64,000 nt of DNA from Psychroserpens jangbogonensis. GTDB lineage: Bacteria; Bacteroidota; Bacteroidia; Flavobacteriales; Flavobacteriaceae. Position 1 is the first letter of the stretch, and every line of letters begins with the position of its first letter. Positions 18,682 to 26,221 of the stretch are shown here, piece after piece. The DNA lies in assembly GCF_000797465.1 (NCBI RefSeq), contig NZ_JSWG01000001.1:339539-403538 (forward strand), in the 5' to 3' direction. The notes under the pieces were generated by a model that was not told the origin of the DNA, did no database searches, and was given only the letters and a program-made list of their open reading frames with translations. Position numbers and translations under genes: made by a program.

Positions 18682-18834
18682 ATGAAGAAAGGAATATTTA
18701 AAGCACTAGCCAAAATCAACAAAGCAGTCTTACCAAGTTATACAAAACGTAACTTAGACCTTAGCAAAGCCACTAATATTCAATTAGGAATTATTGGATG
18801 GCGAGTCTATGTGACCAAGCGTGCTTTGGAGTAA
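18682..18834 (+). CDS. Small basic protein of a flavobacterial family (50 aa)
   Basis: ATG at 18682 opens 50 codons ending TAA at 18832-18834. The product starts MKKGIFKALAKINKAVLPS and ends GWRVYVTKRALE. It is strongly basic with no signal peptide. I recall similar 45-50-residue proteins (KxLAKINKxxLPSxTKxxLDLxKAxxxQxxxxGWRxxVT) in many flavobacteria; some may carry an SsrA-binding label, which the sequence does not justify. A second, broken copy of its 3' end occurs at 26060-26101. There the last eight codons are conserved with only synonymous changes, good evidence that this frame is translated. Confidence 0.75.
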   Translation: MKKGIFKALAKINKAVLPSYTKRNLDLSKATNIQLGIIGWRVYVTKRALE

Positions 18835-19062
18835 AAAAACAAAATTTCAACTTCAGTAACCGAGGCAACAATTACCACGTAATTCCAAAAATTTTAATCT
18901 TCCCTACTCTTCTCGTACCATTTAAATAATCTTAATTTCCAACCGTTTAGTCCTTTAATTAGCAATTTTAGCTGCATTTAAATTGTGACATCAAGCTTAT
19001 GCCAACATACTAGAACAATACCATAATCCTAAATCGTATAAATCGTTTTATTATAAATTGCA

Positions 19063-19108: not shown

Positions 19109-19954
19109 ATGAATTTAAGGTATGCTAAACATCCAGAACAAGGAAACCTTGTTCTAACAGATTTTAATTGTGCTTCTTTTGAAAAAAGATTGGGTGTTGG
19201 CGATTATTACAAAGTAATTTGGGCAAAAGAGAATCCTATTACAATTGGCATCGATGGATACTTGGTGAATTTGGAAAAGGATCAAGTTTTGTTTTGTACG
19301 CCATTTAATATGATCCAAATAGAACCTTTTTTAAAAGGAGCTAGTTCAATAATTTTTGATCGCGAGTTTTACTGTATTAGAGATCATGATCATGAAGTAT
19401 CGTGTAATGGTTTTTTATTTCTTGGGTCTTCAGCACCAACAATTGTAGATTTAACAAAAAAAGAAAGAAAGAGTTTTGAATTACATTTTATGTTTTTTGA
19501 AGAAGAGTTTGAAACCCAAGACCACATTCAAGGTGAAATGTTAAGAGTGCTACTTAAGAGATTACTTATAAAATCGGTAAGACTTTTAAAGAAAACTATT
19601 ATTGACCCAACAATGGAGCAATCAAAAATTGATATTATTAGACAATTTAATTTGTTGGTAGAAGCAAATTTTAGAGAAAAACATAAAGTATCCGATTATG
19701 CAGAACTCTTAAATAAATCACCAAAAACTATTTCCAACCTATTTACTAAGTATAATAACAAGACACCTTTACAAGTTATTAATGATCGTATTATACTTGA
19801 AGCGAAAAAATTATTATTGCTTTCAGAAAAATCTTCAAAAGAAATCGCCTTTGATTTAGGGTTTAACGAAGCTTCTCACTTTTCTAAATTTTTCAAAAAC
19901 TACGCAGATATATCACCAATTCATTTTAAAAAGAATACTTTAAACATCTATTAA
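19109..19954 (+). CDS. AraC family transcriptional regulator (first)
   Basis: A 281-residue regulator from ATG 19109 (MNLRYAKHPEQ); the frame can be extended to a TTG at 19058 but that part overlaps the likely -7 box. Residues 1-130 form a beta-rich sensor domain resembling cupin-type AraC N-termini. The C-terminal 100 residues hold two helix-turn-helix motifs (KVSDYAELLNKSPKTISNLF and SSKEIAFDLGFNEASHFSKFFK) ending DISPIHFKK. It opens the accessory block at 18.7-26.1 kb and stands 102 bp before a second regulator of the same type. Its ligand is unknown. Confidence 0.9.
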   Translation: MNLRYAKHPEQGNLVLTDFNCASFEKRLGVGDYYKVIWAKENPITIGIDGYLVNLEKDQVLFCTPFNMIQIEPFLKGASSIIFDREFYCIRDHDHEVSCNGFLFLGSSAPTIVDLTKKERKSFELHFMFFEEEFETQDHIQGEMLRVLLKRLLIKSVRLLKKTIIDPTMEQSKIDIIRQFNLLVEANFREKHKVSDYAELLNKSPKTISNLFTKYNNKTPLQVINDRIILEAKKLLLLSEKSSKEIAFDLGFNEASHFSKFFKNYADISPIHFKKNTLNIY

Positions 19955-19967
19955 TCTTTTTTTTAAT

Positions 19968-19996
19968 TCTAGGAAAATAGACATCTAATCAGGTCA
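19968..19996. promoter_or_regulatory. Shared regulatory module, site I (before the second AraC gene)
   Basis: TAGGA (19970-19974), AATAGACAT, CTAAT (19985-19989) and GGTCA (19992-19996) occur in the same order as at 23680-23707 before the glutaredoxin-reductase gene. It lies 31 nt upstream of the -7 box at 20028. A binding site for an AraC-type protein of the block is the simplest reading. Confidence 0.5.
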
Positions 19997-20027
19997 AATG
20001 TTTATCAACTAAAGCTACAACCACTTC

Positions 20028-20035
20028 TAACTTTG
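20028..20035 (+). promoter_or_regulatory. -7 box of the second AraC gene
   Basis: TAACTTTG in the context CTAACTTTGTG-N3-CTAAAAAA (20027-20048). The same 22-nt stretch, differing only in the three spacer bases, precedes the glutaredoxin-reductase gene at 23717. No -33 TTG is present at either site, as expected for activator-dependent promoters. Confidence 0.6.
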
Positions 20036-20056
20036 TGTATCTAAAAAAAAAGATAC

Positions 20057-20869
20057 ATGCAACCTGAAATTGGATCGTTATATAATTATCCTTACATAAA
20101 TTACAAAAATTGCAAAACGAAAGCTTTTCATATTGAAAGCGTTTCTTCGGCTAGCTTAATTTGGATTGCTAAGGGTAGTTTAAAATGCAGTATAAATAAC
20201 CAAGTTACGGTTATACCATCTAACACTATTATCTTATTAGATAAAGGAAATGTATTTAGCTATAAAAGTAATAGTAGGTCTCAAATAAAGATACTTGAGT
20301 TTAATACTGAAATTTTCCTAAACTCTGTAACATTTATATGTGGCTTCATTAACAACAACACTAAAAAAGATTTAAAAAATCACATTATGCTCTTTTTTAA
20401 AAATGAGCAATCACCTTTACTAACAGATACTTTTTCAATTGTTGAAGAATTAATCACGGGCAACCATTTAGTAGATATCGAAAAATTGAGTTTTACAATT
20501 TGTAACCTATTGCAGAACGCTCTTATAGAGAAATCTGTTCAAGACTCCAAATACATTAATCGTTTTGGAGAACTTTTAAACTCACAGTATAACATATTTC
20601 ATAATGTTTCTGATTACGCATCCCAACTCATTATGAAACCAAAAAATTTATTGCGTTTGTTTCAAAAAAACGAACTTAAAAACCCAAGTGAGATTATTAA
20701 AGAAAAATTGTTGCTTGAAAGCAAAAAAAGGCTTGTCTATACGGATGAAAGTATTAGAGAAATCTGTTTTGAAATTGGATTTTCTGATCCTGCTTACTTT
20801 TCTAGATTTTTTAAAAAGCACACAAGTCTAACTCCTCAACATTTCAGAAAGGAGTACGCACAAAACTGA
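20057..20869 (+). CDS. AraC family transcriptional regulator (second)
   Basis: A 270-residue regulator. The N-terminal half (to about 165) is a cupin-like sensor (SLIWIAKGSLKCSINNQVTVIPSNTIILLDKG). The C-terminal half carries the AraC double helix-turn-helix: NVSDYASQLIMKPKNLLRLFQ and SIREICFEIGFSDPAYFSRFFKK, ending TSLTPQHFRKEY. The second half is close to that of the first regulator but the sensor domains differ, so they probably answer to different signals. It is preceded by a promoter and by a sequence module that recurs twice more in the block, which suggests autoregulation and control of the neighbouring operons. Confidence 0.92.
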   Translation: MQPEIGSLYNYPYINYKNCKTKAFHIESVSSASLIWIAKGSLKCSINNQVTVIPSNTIILLDKGNVFSYKSNSRSQIKILEFNTEIFLNSVTFICGFINNNTKKDLKNHIMLFFKNEQSPLLTDTFSIVEELITGNHLVDIEKLSFTICNLLQNALIEKSVQDSKYINRFGELLNSQYNIFHNVSDYASQLIMKPKNLLRLFQKNELKNPSEIIKEKLLLESKKRLVYTDESIREICFEIGFSDPAYFSRFFKKHTSLTPQHFRKEYAQN

Positions 20870-20882
20870 TGTATAGCAGAAT

Positions 20883-20915
20883 AAGGAAAAAAGTGCAAGT
20901 TAATAGGATTCTAAT
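20883..20915. promoter_or_regulatory. Shared regulatory module, site II (before the NTF2-like/P460 operon)
   Basis: AAGGAAAAAAGTGCAA followed by GTTAATAGGA (20883-20908) is identical in 22 of 26 positions to 23659-23684 before the glutaredoxin-reductase gene. It continues into TTCTAAT (20909-20915), the right half seen at site III. A weak -7 (TAATTTTA, 20920-20927) follows. Confidence 0.55.
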
Positions 20916-20938
20916 AAACTAATTTTAACATAATTTTT

Positions 20939-21322
20939 ATGGAAATAATAGAAACCATCAATAAAAAACATAAAAGTATTAATCAAGATATTTTTTTCAT
21001 GCTTCTCAAAAATCAAAAAATTGAAGAAGCCATTGAGAAGTTTATGGATGAGGATATTGAAATAGAATATAATAGTAAACAACGTTTCATTTCAAAAAAG
21101 ATCTGGATCAAATATCTAAAGAAAACCATTTTAAATACATCTACAGAAGTTGTTCAATTTAAGGTAGAAGAAACTATAAATCCAGAAGAAAAATTCAAAT
21201 TTAGAATTTTTATGATTTGTAAAAAATTAAAAGGCACCTTCGATTTAACAGAAATAAGAGTATGCAATATTTGGAAGAATAACCAGATCAATAAAATGGA
21301 ATACAAACTAATAAATCACTAA
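20939..21322 (+). CDS. NTF2/SnoaL-like small protein (tentative)
   Basis: A 127-residue cytoplasmic protein without signal peptide. A helical start (SINQDIFFMLLKNQKIEEAIEKFMDEDIEIEY) is followed by beta-strands (VVQFKVEETINPEEKFKFRIFMICKKL, DLTEIRVCNIWKNNQINKMEYKLI). This is the alternation of an NTF2-like cone fold such as SnoaL-type proteins. No catalytic residues can be named. It stands 15 nt before the tandem P460 gene and is probably the first gene of that operon. It may bind a small ligand, but that is inference from the fold guess only. Confidence 0.6.
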   Translation: MEIIETINKKHKSINQDIFFMLLKNQKIEEAIEKFMDEDIEIEYNSKQRFISKKIWIKYLKKTILNTSTEVVQFKVEETINPEEKFKFRIFMICKKLKGTFDLTEIRVCNIWKNNQINKMEYKLINH

Positions 21323-21337
21323 CCTAAAACAAATAAA

Positions 21338-22456
21338 ATGAAGCTTAAAAAAATCTATAAAGTAATTGTACTTGTCTCAATCGTGACATGTTTCATTACT
21401 TCATGTAAAAACGAAGGAGAAGGATATCAAGACATTTCCTATTTCAAAATGAATACTGAAGGTGATTTAGAACGTCCACAGGATTATAGATCTTGGGTAT
21501 ATGTTGGAACACCTGTTACTCCAAATGACATGAATGATGGAAAAGCTGCATTTCCAGAACTCCATAATGTTTATATGGATCCAATGAGCTATGATCACTG
21601 GAAAAAAACAGGGACTTGGCGAGATGGCACTATTCTAGTTAAAGAACTCGTTAGTGTTGGCACTAAAGCTGCTGTAAGTGGTAATGGTTATTTTATGGGA
21701 GAATTCATTGGATTAGAGGCAACAATTAAAAGTTCAAAACATTTCCCAGACGAACCAGGAAATTGGGCATATTTCAGTTTTACCAACCCAAAAGGTGGTG
21801 ATTTAGCAGATACAGGTAAAGCCTTTGAAACGCAAATGTGTAATTCTTGTCATAATGCTAGCGCAGCAGATGATTTTGTGTTTACCCAATATTATCCTGT
21901 ATTATCAGCAGCAAAAGGCGTTGGAGAAAACATTACTCCAGAAAATGCAGCGAGAAGAACAGCTGCTCAAGCAAAGGCCTTTAGTGACGCTGGAGTATGG
22001 GATGCAATGGCACCAACACCAGAAGGTTTAACGCTTGAAATTCCACTAGGAAAAGAACAGTTGTTTGCCTATCTAAAATCCGGAAAATATAAAAGCTATT
22101 CCAATAAAGAAGCAACTGCTCACCCATCTTTAGGACCACATCAAAAATTAGGACTTCCAGTACGTGTATTTATGAATGATATTATTGCGAAATCATTAGA
22201 AGAAGGAAATAATGAACATCCTTTGGGATCAGTAATAGTAAAAGAAATGTTTACAGCAGATAACCAGCCTAATGGTTGGGCTATAATGGCTAAAACCCAT
22301 GATAAATCAGATGGTGGAAATGGTTGGTTTTGGTACGAAGTAACCGATGATAATGATGCAGACAAAATTGCTGCTATTGGAAATGGTGTTGAAGGCTGTG
22401 TAAGTTGCCATACCATTGGAAGAGACATGGTTAGAACTTCCTTCCCTTTAAAATAA
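21338..22456 (+). CDS. Cytochrome P460-like di-haem lipoprotein (two domains)
   Basis: A 372-residue lipoprotein: signal peptide with lipobox ITSC and lipid-anchored Cys23. Two haem c motifs: C168NSCH172 and C354VSCH358. Residues 45-205 look like a cytochrome P460 domain (YRSWVYVGTPVTPNDMN, FPDEPGNWAYFSF, then CxxCH). Residues about 220-372 look like a second, diverged copy (VRVFMNDIIAKSLEEGN...GSVIVKEM...NGWFWYE...GCVSCH). P460 proteins of nitrifiers oxidise hydroxylamine at a haem cross-linked to lysine, and related cytochromes bind NO; whether the cross-link lysine exists here needs alignment. Two domains in one chain is unusual. A single-domain paralogue follows 27 nt later. Confidence 0.8.
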   Translation: MKLKKIYKVIVLVSIVTCFITSCKNEGEGYQDISYFKMNTEGDLERPQDYRSWVYVGTPVTPNDMNDGKAAFPELHNVYMDPMSYDHWKKTGTWRDGTILVKELVSVGTKAAVSGNGYFMGEFIGLEATIKSSKHFPDEPGNWAYFSFTNPKGGDLADTGKAFETQMCNSCHNASAADDFVFTQYYPVLSAAKGVGENITPENAARRTAAQAKAFSDAGVWDAMAPTPEGLTLEIPLGKEQLFAYLKSGKYKSYSNKEATAHPSLGPHQKLGLPVRVFMNDIIAKSLEEGNNEHPLGSVIVKEMFTADNQPNGWAIMAKTHDKSDGGNGWFWYEVTDDNDADKIAAIGNGVEGCVSCHTIGRDMVRTSFPLK

Positions 22457-22483
22457 AAAATAACTAAAAACAAAATATAAAAA

Positions 22484-23095
22484 ATGAATAAATTAAAATA
22501 CATACTCGTAATGATGATAACTATGGTAATAGTGACATCATGTAATGAAAATAGCAATTATATTGAAGCTACATATTTTACCATGGATTCAAATGGAGAG
22601 TTAATTCGTCCTGTAGATTATAGAACATGGATTTATGTTGGAACACCTTTAACGCCTAACGACATGAATAACGGAAAAGCTGCTTTTCCGGAATTTCACA
22701 ATGTATATATTGACCCAATAAGTTATAAACAATATAAAAAAACTGGCACTTGGAGAGAAGGCACAATTCTTATAAAAGAATTAGTAAATGTAGGAAGTAA
22801 AGCTGCCGTTAGTGGCAATGGTTACTTTATGGGTGAATTTATTGGATTAGAAGCTACAATAAAAAGTAAAGAGCACTTTCCAGATGAGCCAGGAAATTGG
22901 GCATATTTTAGTTTTACTAACCCAACAGGAGGAACTTTAGCAGCAACTGGCAAGGCTTTTGAAACTGCTCAATGTAATTCGTGTCATAATTCAAGTGCAG
23001 GTGATGATTTTGTATTTACACAACATTATCCAGTACTTAGAGCAGCCAAAGGTGTTGGCGAAGAAGTAACACCAGAAAACACTGCAAAACGATAA
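22484..23095 (+). CDS. Cytochrome P460-like lipoprotein (single domain)
   Basis: A 203-residue lipoprotein with lipobox VTSC (Cys20) and one haem motif C164NSCH168. It aligns without gaps to the first domain of the upstream gene, about 75 per cent identical by eye, and stops at PENTAKR, exactly where the upstream protein passes into its second domain. So it arose by duplication of domain one, or the upstream gene gained a domain. The downstream 40 bp hold no remnant of a second domain, so this is a complete single-domain protein and not a broken gene. A terminator follows at 23139-23181. It probably acts in the periplasm, anchored to a membrane, with its neighbour. Confidence 0.8.
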   Translation: MNKLKYILVMMITMVIVTSCNENSNYIEATYFTMDSNGELIRPVDYRTWIYVGTPLTPNDMNNGKAAFPEFHNVYIDPISYKQYKKTGTWREGTILIKELVNVGSKAAVSGNGYFMGEFIGLEATIKSKEHFPDEPGNWAYFSFTNPTGGTLAATGKAFETAQCNSCHNSSAGDDFVFTQHYPVLRAAKGVGEEVTPENTAKR

Positions 23096-23138
23096 ACACA
23101 AATTGGTTTTAAACTATTCTCGTAATAGTTTTAGTGTG

Positions 23139-23181
23139 GCCCAAAAGGATTTTTTATTTATACTTTTGGGCTTTTTTTTTT
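23139..23181 (+). terminator. Terminator of the P460 operon
   Basis: GCCCAAAAG (23139-23147) pairs with CTTTTGGGC (23163-23171), followed by ten T residues. The next gene starts 12 nt later, so some read-through is possible. Confidence 0.85.
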
Positions 23182-23192
23182 AAAATTAAAAA

Positions 23193-23660
23193 ATGATAAA
23201 AACAATTGTTTTATTATTATTTGTTGTCCAAATAAGTCAAACAACAATAGCTCAAGAGCATATTGATAAAGAACCAGGCTTTGAGTTAGTTTTTTCAGGA
23301 TTATCTATCTATAATACAGAAACTGAAATAAGTGATTTTGCTACTGAAATCCACCTCACTTACTGGACGACACATAAATGGGCTTTTGGTGTAGGTTACA
23401 CCCTTGTGTTTGAGGAAGACAATAAAATTGGCCATGAGGTCGCAGCATTGGTAAGCCATAAACCTTGGTCATTTTTAACTGTAAATACTGGACCAAGTAT
23501 TTCATTACCAAATTCTCATAAAGACACTGAAATATCCACTTATTTAGAATCTGAATTTGCATTTAAAATAGGAAACATTCATACAGGACCAACTGCTGGA
23601 ATTTTAGTCGGTGAAGATTTTAGATATTTTGGTGGCTTGCACATTAGTTATGAATTTTAA
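23193..23660 (+). CDS. Small outer-membrane barrel-like protein
   Basis: A 155-residue exported protein with signal peptide ending TIAQ. The mature part alternates polar and hydrophobic residues in short strands (FELVFSGLSIY, FATEIHLTYWTTHKWAFGVGYTLVF, HEVAALVSHKPWSFLTVNTGPSISL, STYLESEFAFKIGNIHTGPTAGILV) and ends in a strand with terminal Phe (GGLHISYEF), the hallmark of outer-membrane barrels. Six to eight strands are likely. No family recognised. It lies just after the P460 terminator and before the glutaredoxin-reductase operon and may be read through from either side. Confidence 0.6.
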   Translation: MIKTIVLLLFVVQISQTTIAQEHIDKEPGFELVFSGLSIYNTETEISDFATEIHLTYWTTHKWAFGVGYTLVFEEDNKIGHEVAALVSHKPWSFLTVNTGPSISLPNSHKDTEISTYLESEFAFKIGNIHTGPTAGILVGEDFRYFGGLHISYEF

Positions 23661-23707
23661 GGAAAAAAGTACAATTCATTAGGAGAAATAGATATTCCTA
23701 ATGGTCA
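23659..23707. promoter_or_regulatory. Shared regulatory module, site III (before the glutaredoxin-reductase gene)
   Basis: Contains AAGGAAAAAAGTACAA and TAGGA as at site II, then ATTAGGA (23678-23684), 11 nt, and TCCTAAT (23696-23702), a perfect 7-bp inverted repeat, then GGTCA as at site I. Its end is 10 nt before the -7 box; site I ends 31 nt before its box, a difference of 21 bp or two helical turns. Confidence 0.6.
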
Positions 23708-23717
23708 TGTTGTGCCC

Positions 23718-23725
23718 TAACTTTG
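23718..23725 (+). promoter_or_regulatory. -7 box of the glutaredoxin-reductase operon
   Basis: TAACTTTG inside CTAACTTTGTG-N3-CTAAAAAA (23717-23738), the twin of 20027-20048. ATG follows 21 nt later. Confidence 0.6.
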
Positions 23726-23746
23726 TGATACTAAAAAATAGAACCA

Positions 23747-25153
23747 ATGAATGAAATTAAACTTTATGGTGCAGACTGGTGTCCAGACTGCCGAAGAGCA
23801 AAAGCATATTTAAAGGAAAACAACATAGATTACACCTTTGTTGACGTCGATTTAGATAAAGAGGCTACTGCTAAAGTAGAAGCAATAAATAACGGAAAAC
23901 GTATCATCCCAACTATTATTATTAATGGGAAATCCTACACTAATCCAGAAAACGGTGAGTTAGCTTCTGTTCTAGGAATTAATGAAGAAGGTGATGTGCA
24001 ACTTTTTGGCGCAGATTGGTGTCCAGATTGCAGGCGTGCAAAGAGTTTCTTAAGAGATAATGGCGTCAATTTTCAGTTTATAGATGTAGATGAATATGAT
24101 TGGGCAACGCACAGAGTTGAAGAAATTAATAACGGAAAACGTATAATTCCAACATTATTAATTGACGGTAAACCATATACCAACCCAGATAATGTTGAGC
24201 TTACAGAGTTGCTTTCAATAAATGTAGAAAAAGAGCATAAAATTTTTGACTCGATAATAATTGGAGGAGGTGCAGCTGGGTTGACAACTTCAATTTATGC
24301 ACAGCGTGACCGTTTTGATACATTAATATTAGAGAAATCTACAATTGGAGGCAATGCTTTTCTAACTGAAAAGATTGAGAATTACCCTGGCTTTCAGTCG
24401 ATCTCTGGTCCAAAATTAATGGAGAAAATGGAAGAGCAAGCTAAAACGTATGGCGCTGTTATTAAAACAGGTGAAGAAGTTATTGCCATTACAAAACAAG
24501 GTGAACTATTTTCAATTCAAACAAAGAGTGCCACTTATTTAGGAAAAACAGTTGTCTTATCTACAGGTTCTACTTATAGAAAGTTGGGAATACCAAATGA
24601 AGAAGAGCTCATAGGTTCTGGAATTCATTTTTGCGCAACTTGTGATGGCGCATTTTATAGAGATAGAGATATTATTGTTGTAGGTGGTGGAAATTCAGCA
24701 TTAGAAGAAGGAATCTTTTTAGCCGGTTTTTGCAAAAGTGTTAAAATCATACATCGATCTGAGCACTTTAGTGCATCAGAAACTTATATCGAAAAATTGA
24801 AATCAATTGATAACATTTCAACCTATATGAATAAAACATCACTTGAGTTTGTTTCAAATGAAAATGATTTATTTAAAGGACTTAAAGTTAAAGATAATGT
24901 GACTAATGAAGAATCAATTATTGAAGCAGATGGAGTATTTATTTTTATTGGTTTAATCCCAAATACGCAATCATTTAGGGATGTGGTATCACTTGACGAA
25001 CGTGAATTTATTCAAACTACAGGATTAGCAGAGACTTCAGTAAAAGGAATTTTTGCTGCTGGAGATTGCAGAGAAGGTGCGATTGCCCAAGTCGCAGCAG
25101 CAACTGGAGAAGGTGTTTTGGCGAGCTACGGAATTAGAAATTATTTGAAATAA
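23747..25153 (+). CDS. Double glutaredoxin-thioredoxin reductase fusion
   Basis: A 468-residue cytoplasmic flavoprotein with three parts. Two tandem glutaredoxin-like domains (about 2-77 and 83-158) have active sites WC12PDC15 and WC92PDC95 and each a cis-proline segment NNGKRIIPT. From about 165 a full thioredoxin-reductase-type module follows: FAD loop GGGAAG (173-178), redox pair C296ATC299, NADPH loop GGGNSA (313-318) and the C-terminal GIFAAGDCREGAIAQVAAATGEG. It should carry electrons from NADPH via FAD to its own glutaredoxin domains and then to an unknown thiol or persulfide substrate. Two Grx domains on one reductase is uncommon. It starts from its own promoter and leads a short operon with two further genes. 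Confidence 0.92.
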   Translation: MNEIKLYGADWCPDCRRAKAYLKENNIDYTFVDVDLDKEATAKVEAINNGKRIIPTIIINGKSYTNPENGELASVLGINEEGDVQLFGADWCPDCRRAKSFLRDNGVNFQFIDVDEYDWATHRVEEINNGKRIIPTLLIDGKPYTNPDNVELTELLSINVEKEHKIFDSIIIGGGAAGLTTSIYAQRDRFDTLILEKSTIGGNAFLTEKIENYPGFQSISGPKLMEKMEEQAKTYGAVIKTGEEVIAITKQGELFSIQTKSATYLGKTVVLSTGSTYRKLGIPNEEELIGSGIHFCATCDGAFYRDRDIIVVGGGNSALEEGIFLAGFCKSVKIIHRSEHFSASETYIEKLKSIDNISTYMNKTSLEFVSNENDLFKGLKVKDNVTNEESIIEADGVFIFIGLIPNTQSFRDVVSLDEREFIQTTGLAETSVKGIFAAGDCREGAIAQVAAATGEGVLASYGIRNYLK

Positions 25154-25159
25154 AAACTA

Positions 25160-25609
25160 ATGGAATTACCAATCAAAAAGAAAGTTTTAGTAGTTTTTGC
25201 GTTAGTTTTTATTGGAATACAGTTCTATAGACCAAATAAAAATGAACAATTGCCAGAAACTTTAGATGACTTTTTAATTGCAGAAAAAGCTCCAAAAAAC
25301 ATTAAATCATTAATTAAAAATTCCTGCTATAATTGCCATTCGAATAACACCAATTATTTTTGGTATGATCATATTGCTCCTGCAAGTTGGTTTGTAGATA
25401 ACCATATTAAAGAAGCAAGAGAACATCTTAATTTTTCAAATTGGGCAACATTAGATAGCAGAGATAGAGCTGGAATGGTTTCTGAAATAGCAGTAAATAT
25501 TTTAGAAGAAAAAATGCCATTACCTTCGTATGTTACAATTCACTCAGATGCTAAATTATCCGAAAGTAATAAACAAAAAATTTTAGAATGGCTTTATACT
25601 ATTGATTAA
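25160..25609 (+). CDS. Haem-binding-domain protein (c-type motif)
   Basis: A 149-residue protein with one N-terminal membrane anchor (KKVLVVFALVFIGIQFY) followed by a periplasmic domain. The domain has a single c-type haem site C-Y-N-C-H-S (about 56-61) and downstream residues DHIAPASWFVDNHIKEAREHLNFSNW and EEKMPLPSYVTIH, the pattern of the haem-binding domain found in many Bacteroidota redox proteins. It is encoded 6 nt after the glutaredoxin-reductase gene, so it is cotranscribed. It may accept or donate single electrons in the periplasm beside the P460-like proteins; the partner is not known. Confidence 0.88.
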   Translation: MELPIKKKVLVVFALVFIGIQFYRPNKNEQLPETLDDFLIAEKAPKNIKSLIKNSCYNCHSNNTNYFWYDHIAPASWFVDNHIKEAREHLNFSNWATLDSRDRAGMVSEIAVNILEEKMPLPSYVTIHSDAKLSESNKQKILEWLYTID

Positions 25610-25637: not shown

Positions 25638-26030
25638 ATGATGAACTGGTATTTACCAATTACTATTATTCCTGGTTTAGGAATGTTAATTCTATCTACT
25701 ACCTCACAAATGATGACGTTAAGTTCAGAAATTGGAAGTTTGTTGGCAAATAAGTGTACTTTAAATCAACATAAAATTTCTGAACGAAAAATCAAACAAT
25801 TAGGTTTACTAACTAGAGCTAGTGCATTGCTATATTTAGCAACAGGATGTTACGTGTTATCTGGAATTTTAGGTGTTGTTTTTGAAACAGAAGCAATTTT
25901 AAGTTTACCAAGTATTACGCTTTACTTAGGTACCGTTTTAATATTTATAGCCATTAGTTTGTTAATTCTCTATGCTTTTCGAGCTGTAAAAATAAGGAAA
26001 GACCAATTTATAAATAATCAAAATATATAA
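25638..26030 (+). CDS. Small membrane protein, DUF2721-like (tentative)
   Basis: A 130-residue protein with hydrophobic segments near 5-22, 60-83 and 90-112 and a basic loop (KISERKIKQLGLLTRAS) between the first two. That loop followed by long helices resembles DUF2721 proteins, whose function is unknown. It follows the haem-binding gene by 28 nt and probably ends the operon. No stem-loop follows directly; the next hairpin is at 26110. Confidence 0.6.
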   Translation: MMNWYLPITIIPGLGMLILSTTSQMMTLSSEIGSLLANKCTLNQHKISERKIKQLGLLTRASALLYLATGCYVLSGILGVVFETEAILSLPSITLYLGTVLIFIAISLLILYAFRAVKIRKDQFINNQNI

Positions 26031-26050: not shown

Positions 26051-26101
26051 ATGAGCAGCTATTGGTTGCTAGTCTATGTGACTAAACGAGCTTTGGAATA
26101 A
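26051..26101 (+). pseudogene. Broken 3' copy of the 50-aa small gene (possible attachment-site repeat)
   Basis: From 26060 to 26103 the sequence matches 18792-18836, the 3' end of the small gene at 18682, at 38 of 44 aligned positions with one single-base gap. The gap shifts the frame ahead of the shared part. The last eight codons (YVTKRALE) are kept, with four changes that are all at third positions and synonymous (ACC/ACT, AAG/AAA, CGT/CGA, GAG/GAA). The 12-bp block AGTCTATGTGAC (26071-26082; 18804-18815) is identical. A 16-codon frame from ATG 26051 still reads MSSYWLLVYVTKRALE. Either an ancient duplication, or the displaced host end left by insertion of the 7.2-kb block between them. 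Confidence 0.6.
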
Positions 26102-26103
26102 AA

Positions 26104-26139
26104 CAAAAAAAGCAAGCTATTTTATTAGCTTGCTTTTTA
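26104..26139. terminator. Terminator beside tRNA-Arg
   Basis: AAGCAAGCTA, six-base loop, TAGCTTGCTT. T-runs occur on both strands (TTTTTAT on plus, seven T on minus), so it can end the tRNA-Arg transcript and the operon from the left. Confidence 0.85.
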
Positions 26140-26147
26140 TTTATTCG

Positions 26148-26221
26148 TGACCTCGACTGGATTCAAACCAGTAACCTCTTGAGCCGTAATCAAGTGCGCT
26201 ATTCAGTTGCGCCACGAGGCC
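26148..26221 (-). tRNA. tRNA-Arg (anticodon ACG)
   Basis: Minus strand folds as a cloverleaf: acceptor GGCCTCG/CGAGGTC, D arm GCGC...GCGC, anticodon stem CTTGA/TCAAG around loop TTACGGC (anticodon ACG, to read CGN codons after deamination to inosine), T stem ACTGG/CCAGT with TTTGAAT loop, discriminator A. CCA is not encoded. Its 3' end faces the accessory block, but no tRNA 3'-end repeat was found at the far side of that block. Confidence 0.95.

Follow-up and report, generated by a model that had tools for sequence, protein, structure and literature searches.

Regulators of the AraC family, those of Bacteroides included, have been reported to recognize direct repeats with a 21-bp periodicity (PMC3870299). 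The gene block analyzed here lies in a 64,000-nucleotide stretch of the Psychroserpens jangbogonensis genome (contig NZ_JSWG01000001.1, positions 339,539 to 403,538; hereafter the window) and carries two AraC-family genes, araC1 and araC2, together with three intergenic sites (I, II, and III) that precede araC2, an operon for Cytochrome_P460 domain proteins, and the operon of a glutaredoxin-glutaredoxin-thioredoxin reductase-like (Grx-TrxR) fusion. A similar 21-bp direct-repeat layout is described for rhamnose regulators of AraC type predicted in Bacteroides, Bacillales, and Enterococcus; as presented in PMC3870299, these serve sugar catabolism, whereas the block contains thiol/peroxide and P460 genes, uses another DNA word, and has an extra design with a single half-site. 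If our thiol-switch reading of AraC1 is right, AraC1 would resemble RclR of Escherichia coli, which PMC7464077 describes as an AraC-family protein that activates redox genes and is switched by two cysteines; the RclR pair is Cys21/Cys89, in contrast to the family-wide Cys89/Cys99 of the AraC1 family. Membership of AraC1 in the RclR type was rejected, BLASTP showing no similarity between them above chance (best E 3.6). The regulatory domains of E. coli AraC and RhaR have a fold like that of the AraC1 N-domain, and the double helix-turn-helix (HTH) fold is common to AraC1 and full-length AraC proteins of the ToxT/Rns type, in both cases at 12-14% identity. Searches of the open-access literature, subscription papers being outside that scope, listed no paper that seems to deal with this regulon.

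We propose, with a probability of about 0.6, that the block contains two kinds of AraC operator, a tandem one at sites I and III that is likely bound by AraC1 and a single one at site II that is likely bound by AraC2, which together would form a two-tier cascade. A preliminary description of this DNA had suggested one AraC regulon. AraC-type control of all three units is supported because the half-sites are conserved, the spacing to the -7 box is fixed, the -33 boxes are missing, and the sites co-occur with AraC genes; a single regulon is too simple for two designs.

Two predicted operator designs at three sites

The regulators and the elements at the three sites are the following.

19109..19954, + strand: araC1, AraC-family regulator with a cupin-like N-domain, a double HTH, and a Cys89/Cys99 pair; HTH_18 (PF12833), 8.3e-19
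20057..20869, + strand: araC2, second AraC-family regulator, of a separate clade and without the FYC..C motif; HTH_18 (PF12833), 7.1e-19
19971..19984, + strand: site I distal half-site AGGAAAATAGACAT, starting 57 nt 5' of the -7 box; profile E 2.3e-11
19992..20005, + strand: site I proximal half-site GGTCAAATGTTTAT, starting 36 nt 5' of the -7 box
20028..20035, + strand: araC2 promoter, -7 consensus box TAACTTTG
20885..20898, + strand: site II single half-site GGAAAAAAGTGCAA, starting 35 nt before its own box
20920..20927, + strand: -7-like box TAATTTTA of the P460 operon
23661..23674, + strand: site III distal half-site GGAAAAAAGTACAA, starting 57 nt 5' of the -7 box; profile E 2.2e-13
23682..23695, + strand: site III proximal half-site GGAGAAATAGATAT, starting 36 nt 5' of the -7 box
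23718..23725, + strand: Grx-TrxR operon promoter, -7 consensus box TAACTTTG

Sites I and III are predicted to be AraC-type operators, likely bound by the neighboring AraC1. The preliminary description had suggested a search of relatives for the motifs, and there the sites do stand before the promoters with fixed spacing: the layout of half-sites at 57 and 36 nt before TAnnTTTG is found for both site I and site III in 5/5 genomes with the full block, namely the window and its relatives L009, L010, L034, and L011. The proximal GG at 36 nt is retained in 10/10 copies (both sites, five genomes), and the distal GG of site III stands at 57 nt in 4/5, L009 being the exception. At site I, the distal GG is one base nearer the box in the window's own copy, L010, and L034 and is substituted in L009 and L011; despite these shifts and losses, the CA part holds its position in all five genomes. 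The two half-sites form a direct repeat with a period of about 21 bp, or two turns of the helix, which makes the tandem operator one of the type already known for AraC regulators. Site III is retained while the gene behind it varies, from TrxR (window, L009) to a 118-aa-type small protein (L010, L034) and msrB/msrA-like genes (L011), which suggests that the operator itself is under selection. The 21-bp difference in promoter distance that had been noted between sites I and III corresponds to the half-site spacing of an AraC operator, and it arose because half-site 1 of site I had been paired with half-site 2 of site III.

Site II has a half-site in common with site III, from whose distal half-site it differs by one base, but not the promoter geometry of site III. 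Its half-site lies 35 nt before the box in 7/8 loci: before TAATTTTA in the window, L009, L010, L034, and L011, and before TATTTTTG and TAAATTTG in L035 and L222, respectively, both with AG instead of GG; in L168 the distance to TAATTTTA is 36 nt. The boxes of L035 and L222 end in TTTG, which supports the choice of box at site II. We found no conserved distal half-site at site II in the eight loci, so that the site adjacent to AraC2 is not a tandem operator, and this single-half-site design is less usual than the tandem AraC operator.

The likeness between sites II (20883-20908) and III (23659-23684) that was originally noticed, with 22 of 26 bases identical, is borne out, 22 being the best 26-mer match between the two regions and a value reached by 0/300 shuffled pairs (mean 15.9, max 20). 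The joint pattern GGAAAAAAGTNCAA-N4..6-TAGGA occurs in the 3.63-Mb genome only at these two sites, and its reversed control gave 0 matches. The single match among 298 other genomes of the family, in G245, was dismissed, as it sits inside rplQ.

Also present as described are TAGGA, AATAGAYAT, CTAAT, and GGTCA in the same order in site I (19970-19996) and site III (23680-23707), and the matched -7 boxes TAACTTTG at 20028-20035 and 23718-23725. By eye, CTAAT and GGTCA are not conserved in site III of the four relatives with the block, and CTAAAAA follows the box at site I in 3/4 relatives and at site III in none. The palindrome ATTAGGA-N11-TCCTAAT of site III exists in the window, but its absence from 4/4 block-bearing relatives led us to reject it.

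Tandem sites and the AraC1 family

The association of tandem sites with AraC1-family genes was examined in 23 genomes of the genus with a 76-position profile built from 16 sites, scoring 150 first-look candidates per genome; sites with E<1e-3 were considered strong, and AraC1-family genes were taken at E<=1e-40. All strong sites (33/33) were within 3.8 kb of an AraC1-family gene. They occurred in 13/13 genomes with such a gene versus 0/10 without (best E without the gene, 0.0029), and omitting the four training genomes gave 9/9 versus 0/10 (Fisher 1.1e-5). Only four strong sites were found in the window's own genome. Sites III and I are two of these, and the other two, with half-sites GGAARAATTGACAA, stand next to an AraC1 paralogue on contig 62. 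Within the window, matrix scores were 48.4 for site III, 20.8 for site I, and at most 3 for all else. As a partial control for synteny, we considered 66 loci fetched with the TrxR fusion, where a site scoring at least 24 was present in 8/10 loci with an AraC1-family gene versus 3/56 without (Fisher 1.2e-6), up to five of the ten having given sites to the matrix; the reversed loci had 0 sites at this score.

The AraC1 family is widespread (of 3419 candidates, 2751 are homologues at E<=1e-30), and a tandem operator lies just downstream of many of its genes in Bacteroidota. A tblastn search (E<=1e-25) in 167 loci gave 80 AraC1-family loci, or 63 after removal of copies and of those with <200 nt behind the gene, and in each the scan began 60 nt 5' of the stop codon and ended 350 nt 3' of it. 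The pattern GG-N19-GG-N34-YAnnTTTG was found in 28/63 distinct loci, compared with a mean of 0.14 loci over the 1271 spacing pairs tested and 3 for the best pair not adjoining 19/34. The adjoining pairs 20/34, 18/35, 19/35, and 18/34 reached 23, 11, 9, and 5 loci, which we attribute to GGG runs. The pattern was found 0 times on the opposite strand and 0 times on the upstream side, and 200 shuffles gave a mean of 0.02 and a maximum of 1. Similarly, a half-site-pair matrix, trained on 25 of the 41 sites matched by the regular expression plus two site III copies, scored 14 or more in 43/63 downstream regions versus 0/63 on the opposite strand, 4/63 reversed, and 1/61 upstream; it was also high in loci without a match to the regular expression (L147, L154, L109, L143, L152, L153, L142, L162). 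The consensus of the 41 tandem sites reads GGAAaAATtgACAa-N7-GGAAaaa..tCCAt, then CATcTTTG. For AraC1, tandem direct repeats about 21 bp apart beside a promoter, as expected of an AraC/XylS member, were thus found.

A conserved open reading frame (ORF) of about 50 aa, with an HxHDYYCDAEKP-like end, lies between the AraC1 paralogue and the AhpD-like gene in L129 (2337-2489) and L136 (1237-1395), where it sits between the two operators. Separately, an element TGTAAGTTTAC occurs 5' of araC1 at the approximate positions L010:1900, L034:1925, and L011:630, and was seen by eye neither in the window nor in L009.

Likely assignment of the regulators and proposed mechanism

Which protein reads which design is indicated by loci in which the modules are separated. 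L021 has AraC1 and a full tandem site before msrB, and its 6.3-kb contig shows no match to AraC2 or P460, so that AraC1 is the more likely reader of the tandem design. G022 has the modules in separate places: an AraC1 homologue, its site, msrB, and msrA, and, 9 kb on, an AraC2 homologue, site II, and P460. In a midpoint-rooted tree the AraC2-type proteins group as one clade (support 0.986), and they lack the cysteine motif. A single-half-site pattern yielded 13 distinct sites in 1.77 Mb of partly overlapping DNA and 0 in reversed DNA, and 13/13 belong to DNA of ten genomes that carry a gene of the AraC2 type, among them G319 (see below), which gave no AraC1-family match. As judged from these sequences, tandem sites track AraC1-family genes and single ones track AraC2-type genes, and a two-regulator cascade fits better than one AraC regulon.

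Several observations weigh against this assignment. Most of the sites were already known when the single-half-site pattern was composed, and the pattern describes more than it tests; synteny inflates the co-occurrence, site and gene being neighbors. L018, L030, and L033 have tandem sites, preceding trx or TrxR genes, and no AraC1-family gene within the stretch examined, and in L030 an AraC2-type gene adjoins a tandem site. Among the AraC1-family loci, 20/63 remain below 14 even by the half-site-pair matrix, and L042, with an AraC1 57% identical, lacks a site according to the full matrix. The single-half-site match of G146 stands before a cytochrome c-like gene instead of P460, and G164, which gave no AraC2 match, has P460 behind a tandem site of the AraC1 type. 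The half-sites of II and III are nearly alike, so that one protein could bind both and cross-talk between AraC1 and AraC2 is possible.

This last point and G164 would suit the single regulon of the preliminary description, an arrangement that we consider unlikely, in which AraC1 alone binds all three sites, AraC2 has its targets elsewhere, and site II is a tandem site minus its distal half; the different geometry of site II (one half-site, 35 nt) speaks against it, as does G319, a 98% complete genome with AraC2 and P460 and no AraC1-family match at 1e-20, in which single half-sites nevertheless stand 36 nt before the araC2 box and, there without CAA, 35 nt before that of P460.

Under the two-tier cascade, an AraC1 dimer would place one double-HTH unit on each half-site of sites I and III. 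At the expected place of the -33 TTTG the window has TCAA (site I) and TTCC (site III), in agreement with the original remark that neither matched promoter has a normal -33, and TTTG is missing there in 18/18 tabulated tandem sites (13 of site I type and 5 of site III). The flavobacterial -33 element is described as not essential, yet required for full activity (PMC2483708). At sites I and III the proximal half-site extends to where that element should lie, which points to an activator replacing that contact: AraC1 would stand in for it and recruit RNA polymerase at araC2 through site I, and likewise at the Grx-TrxR/haem-binding operon through site III, and AraC2 would then activate the P460 operon via site II. 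That the AraC proteins instead use these sites for repression or looping is improbable; E. coli AraC is among those said to repress by looping (PMC6018408), but both the reach of the proximal half-site and the uniformly missing TTTG are what a need for an activator predicts. Least probable of all is that the motif belongs to another, unlinked regulator with the AraC genes as mere neighbors, as synteny and the sites of L018 and L033, without an AraC match in the stretch examined, might suggest, for strong sites occur in none of the ten genus genomes without an AraC1-family gene and the 21-bp direct repeats are AraC-like.

The favored signal for the cascade is an oxidant, which would be sensed through the Cys89/Cys99 pair. 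In the AlphaFold model of AraC1 (pLDDT 84.8), helices and two HTH units accompany a cupin-like domain, and the solved structures that Foldseek places closest to it are those of AraC-family proteins (E down to 3.4e-09). The N-terminal cupin-like and helical dimerization domain matches AraC (2arc) and RhaR (5u93), and the C-terminal AraC-type double HTH matches HTH structures with TMt up to 0.89; AraC2 has a C-terminal AraC-type double HTH as well (PF12833), and the resemblance between the two proteins is confined to this C-terminal half. Across aligned family members, close relatives included, Cys89 is conserved in 61/61 and Cys99 in 60/61, and Cys21 is kept in 17/61. The first genes behind the sites in relatives include CMD/AhpD-like, OsmC, thioredoxin, MsrA, MsrB, and Grx-TrxR. 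The near-invariant cysteines and these redox targets suggest a thiol switch in AraC1.

More tentatively, and at somewhat less than even odds, AraC1 may belong to a phylum-wide group of Bacteroidota thiol-switch activators with a fixed 57/36 operator that control oxidant-repair genes (AhpD-like, OsmC, thioredoxin, MsrA/B, Grx-TrxR), and which in this clade would have recruited a second AraC protein with a one-half-site operator, adding the haem P460 proteins. With a spacing that is fixed and goes with a single widespread AraC family, targets would be predictable from sequence, and P460 haem proteins would be linked to a thiol and peroxide repair program. The two-regulator circuit is compact, and two proteins and three DNA fragments suffice to test its wiring.

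The gene block and its surroundings

The remaining features of the block are the following.

20939..21322, + strand: small protein, called NTF2 in the preliminary description
21338..22456, + strand: P460a, Cytochrome_P460 domain protein; PF16694, 9.6e-37
22484..23095, + strand: P460b, shorter tandem copy; PF16694, 4.2e-27
23139..23182, + strand: hairpin followed by a T run, terminator-like, 3' of P460b, as read from the sequence
23193-23660: 155-aa protein
23747..25153, + strand: Grx-TrxR fusion; Pfam Glutaredoxin x2 and Pyr_redox_2
25160..25609, + strand: haem-binding domain protein, next gene of the Grx-TrxR operon; PF14376, 3.5e-42
25638-26030: DUF2721-like protein

All of the block is present in L009, L010, L034, and L011; L035, L222, and L223 have a diverged or partial version. 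The small protein had no match in Pfam and NCBIfam. P460b is a shortened tandem duplicate of P460a, with DNA 76-77% identical (21440-21739/22574-22873 and 21839-21958/22973-23092). The Grx-TrxR fusion scores below the cut-off of TIGR01292. The terminator-like hairpin between P460b and the 155-aa gene has similar counterparts in L009, L010, L034, and L011; it was not among the results of a terminator scan with a loop limit of 8. Read-through may be needed for expression of the 155-aa gene. A single-half-site match on the minus strand of L222 (position 3766) precedes a homologue of the 155-aa protein on the other strand, whose gene may be an AraC2 target there; the genome of L222, G121, has AraC1-family genes elsewhere.

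A genome-wide regulon defined by the exact word AAGGAAAAAAGTNCAA was rejected, with 34 matches at up to two mismatches versus 64 in the reversed control; by eye, its three one-mismatch matches lie among letters that look coding, and none has the layout. A sigma-70 scan found 28 versus 36.2 expected.

The whole block is flanked by an 84% direct repeat (18801-18844 and 26068-26111), one copy being the end of a small ORF and the other a fragment of that ORF, and a tRNA-Arg gene (26147-26221) adjoins the 3' copy. With this repeat and the tRNA gene alongside, the block may be an insertion.

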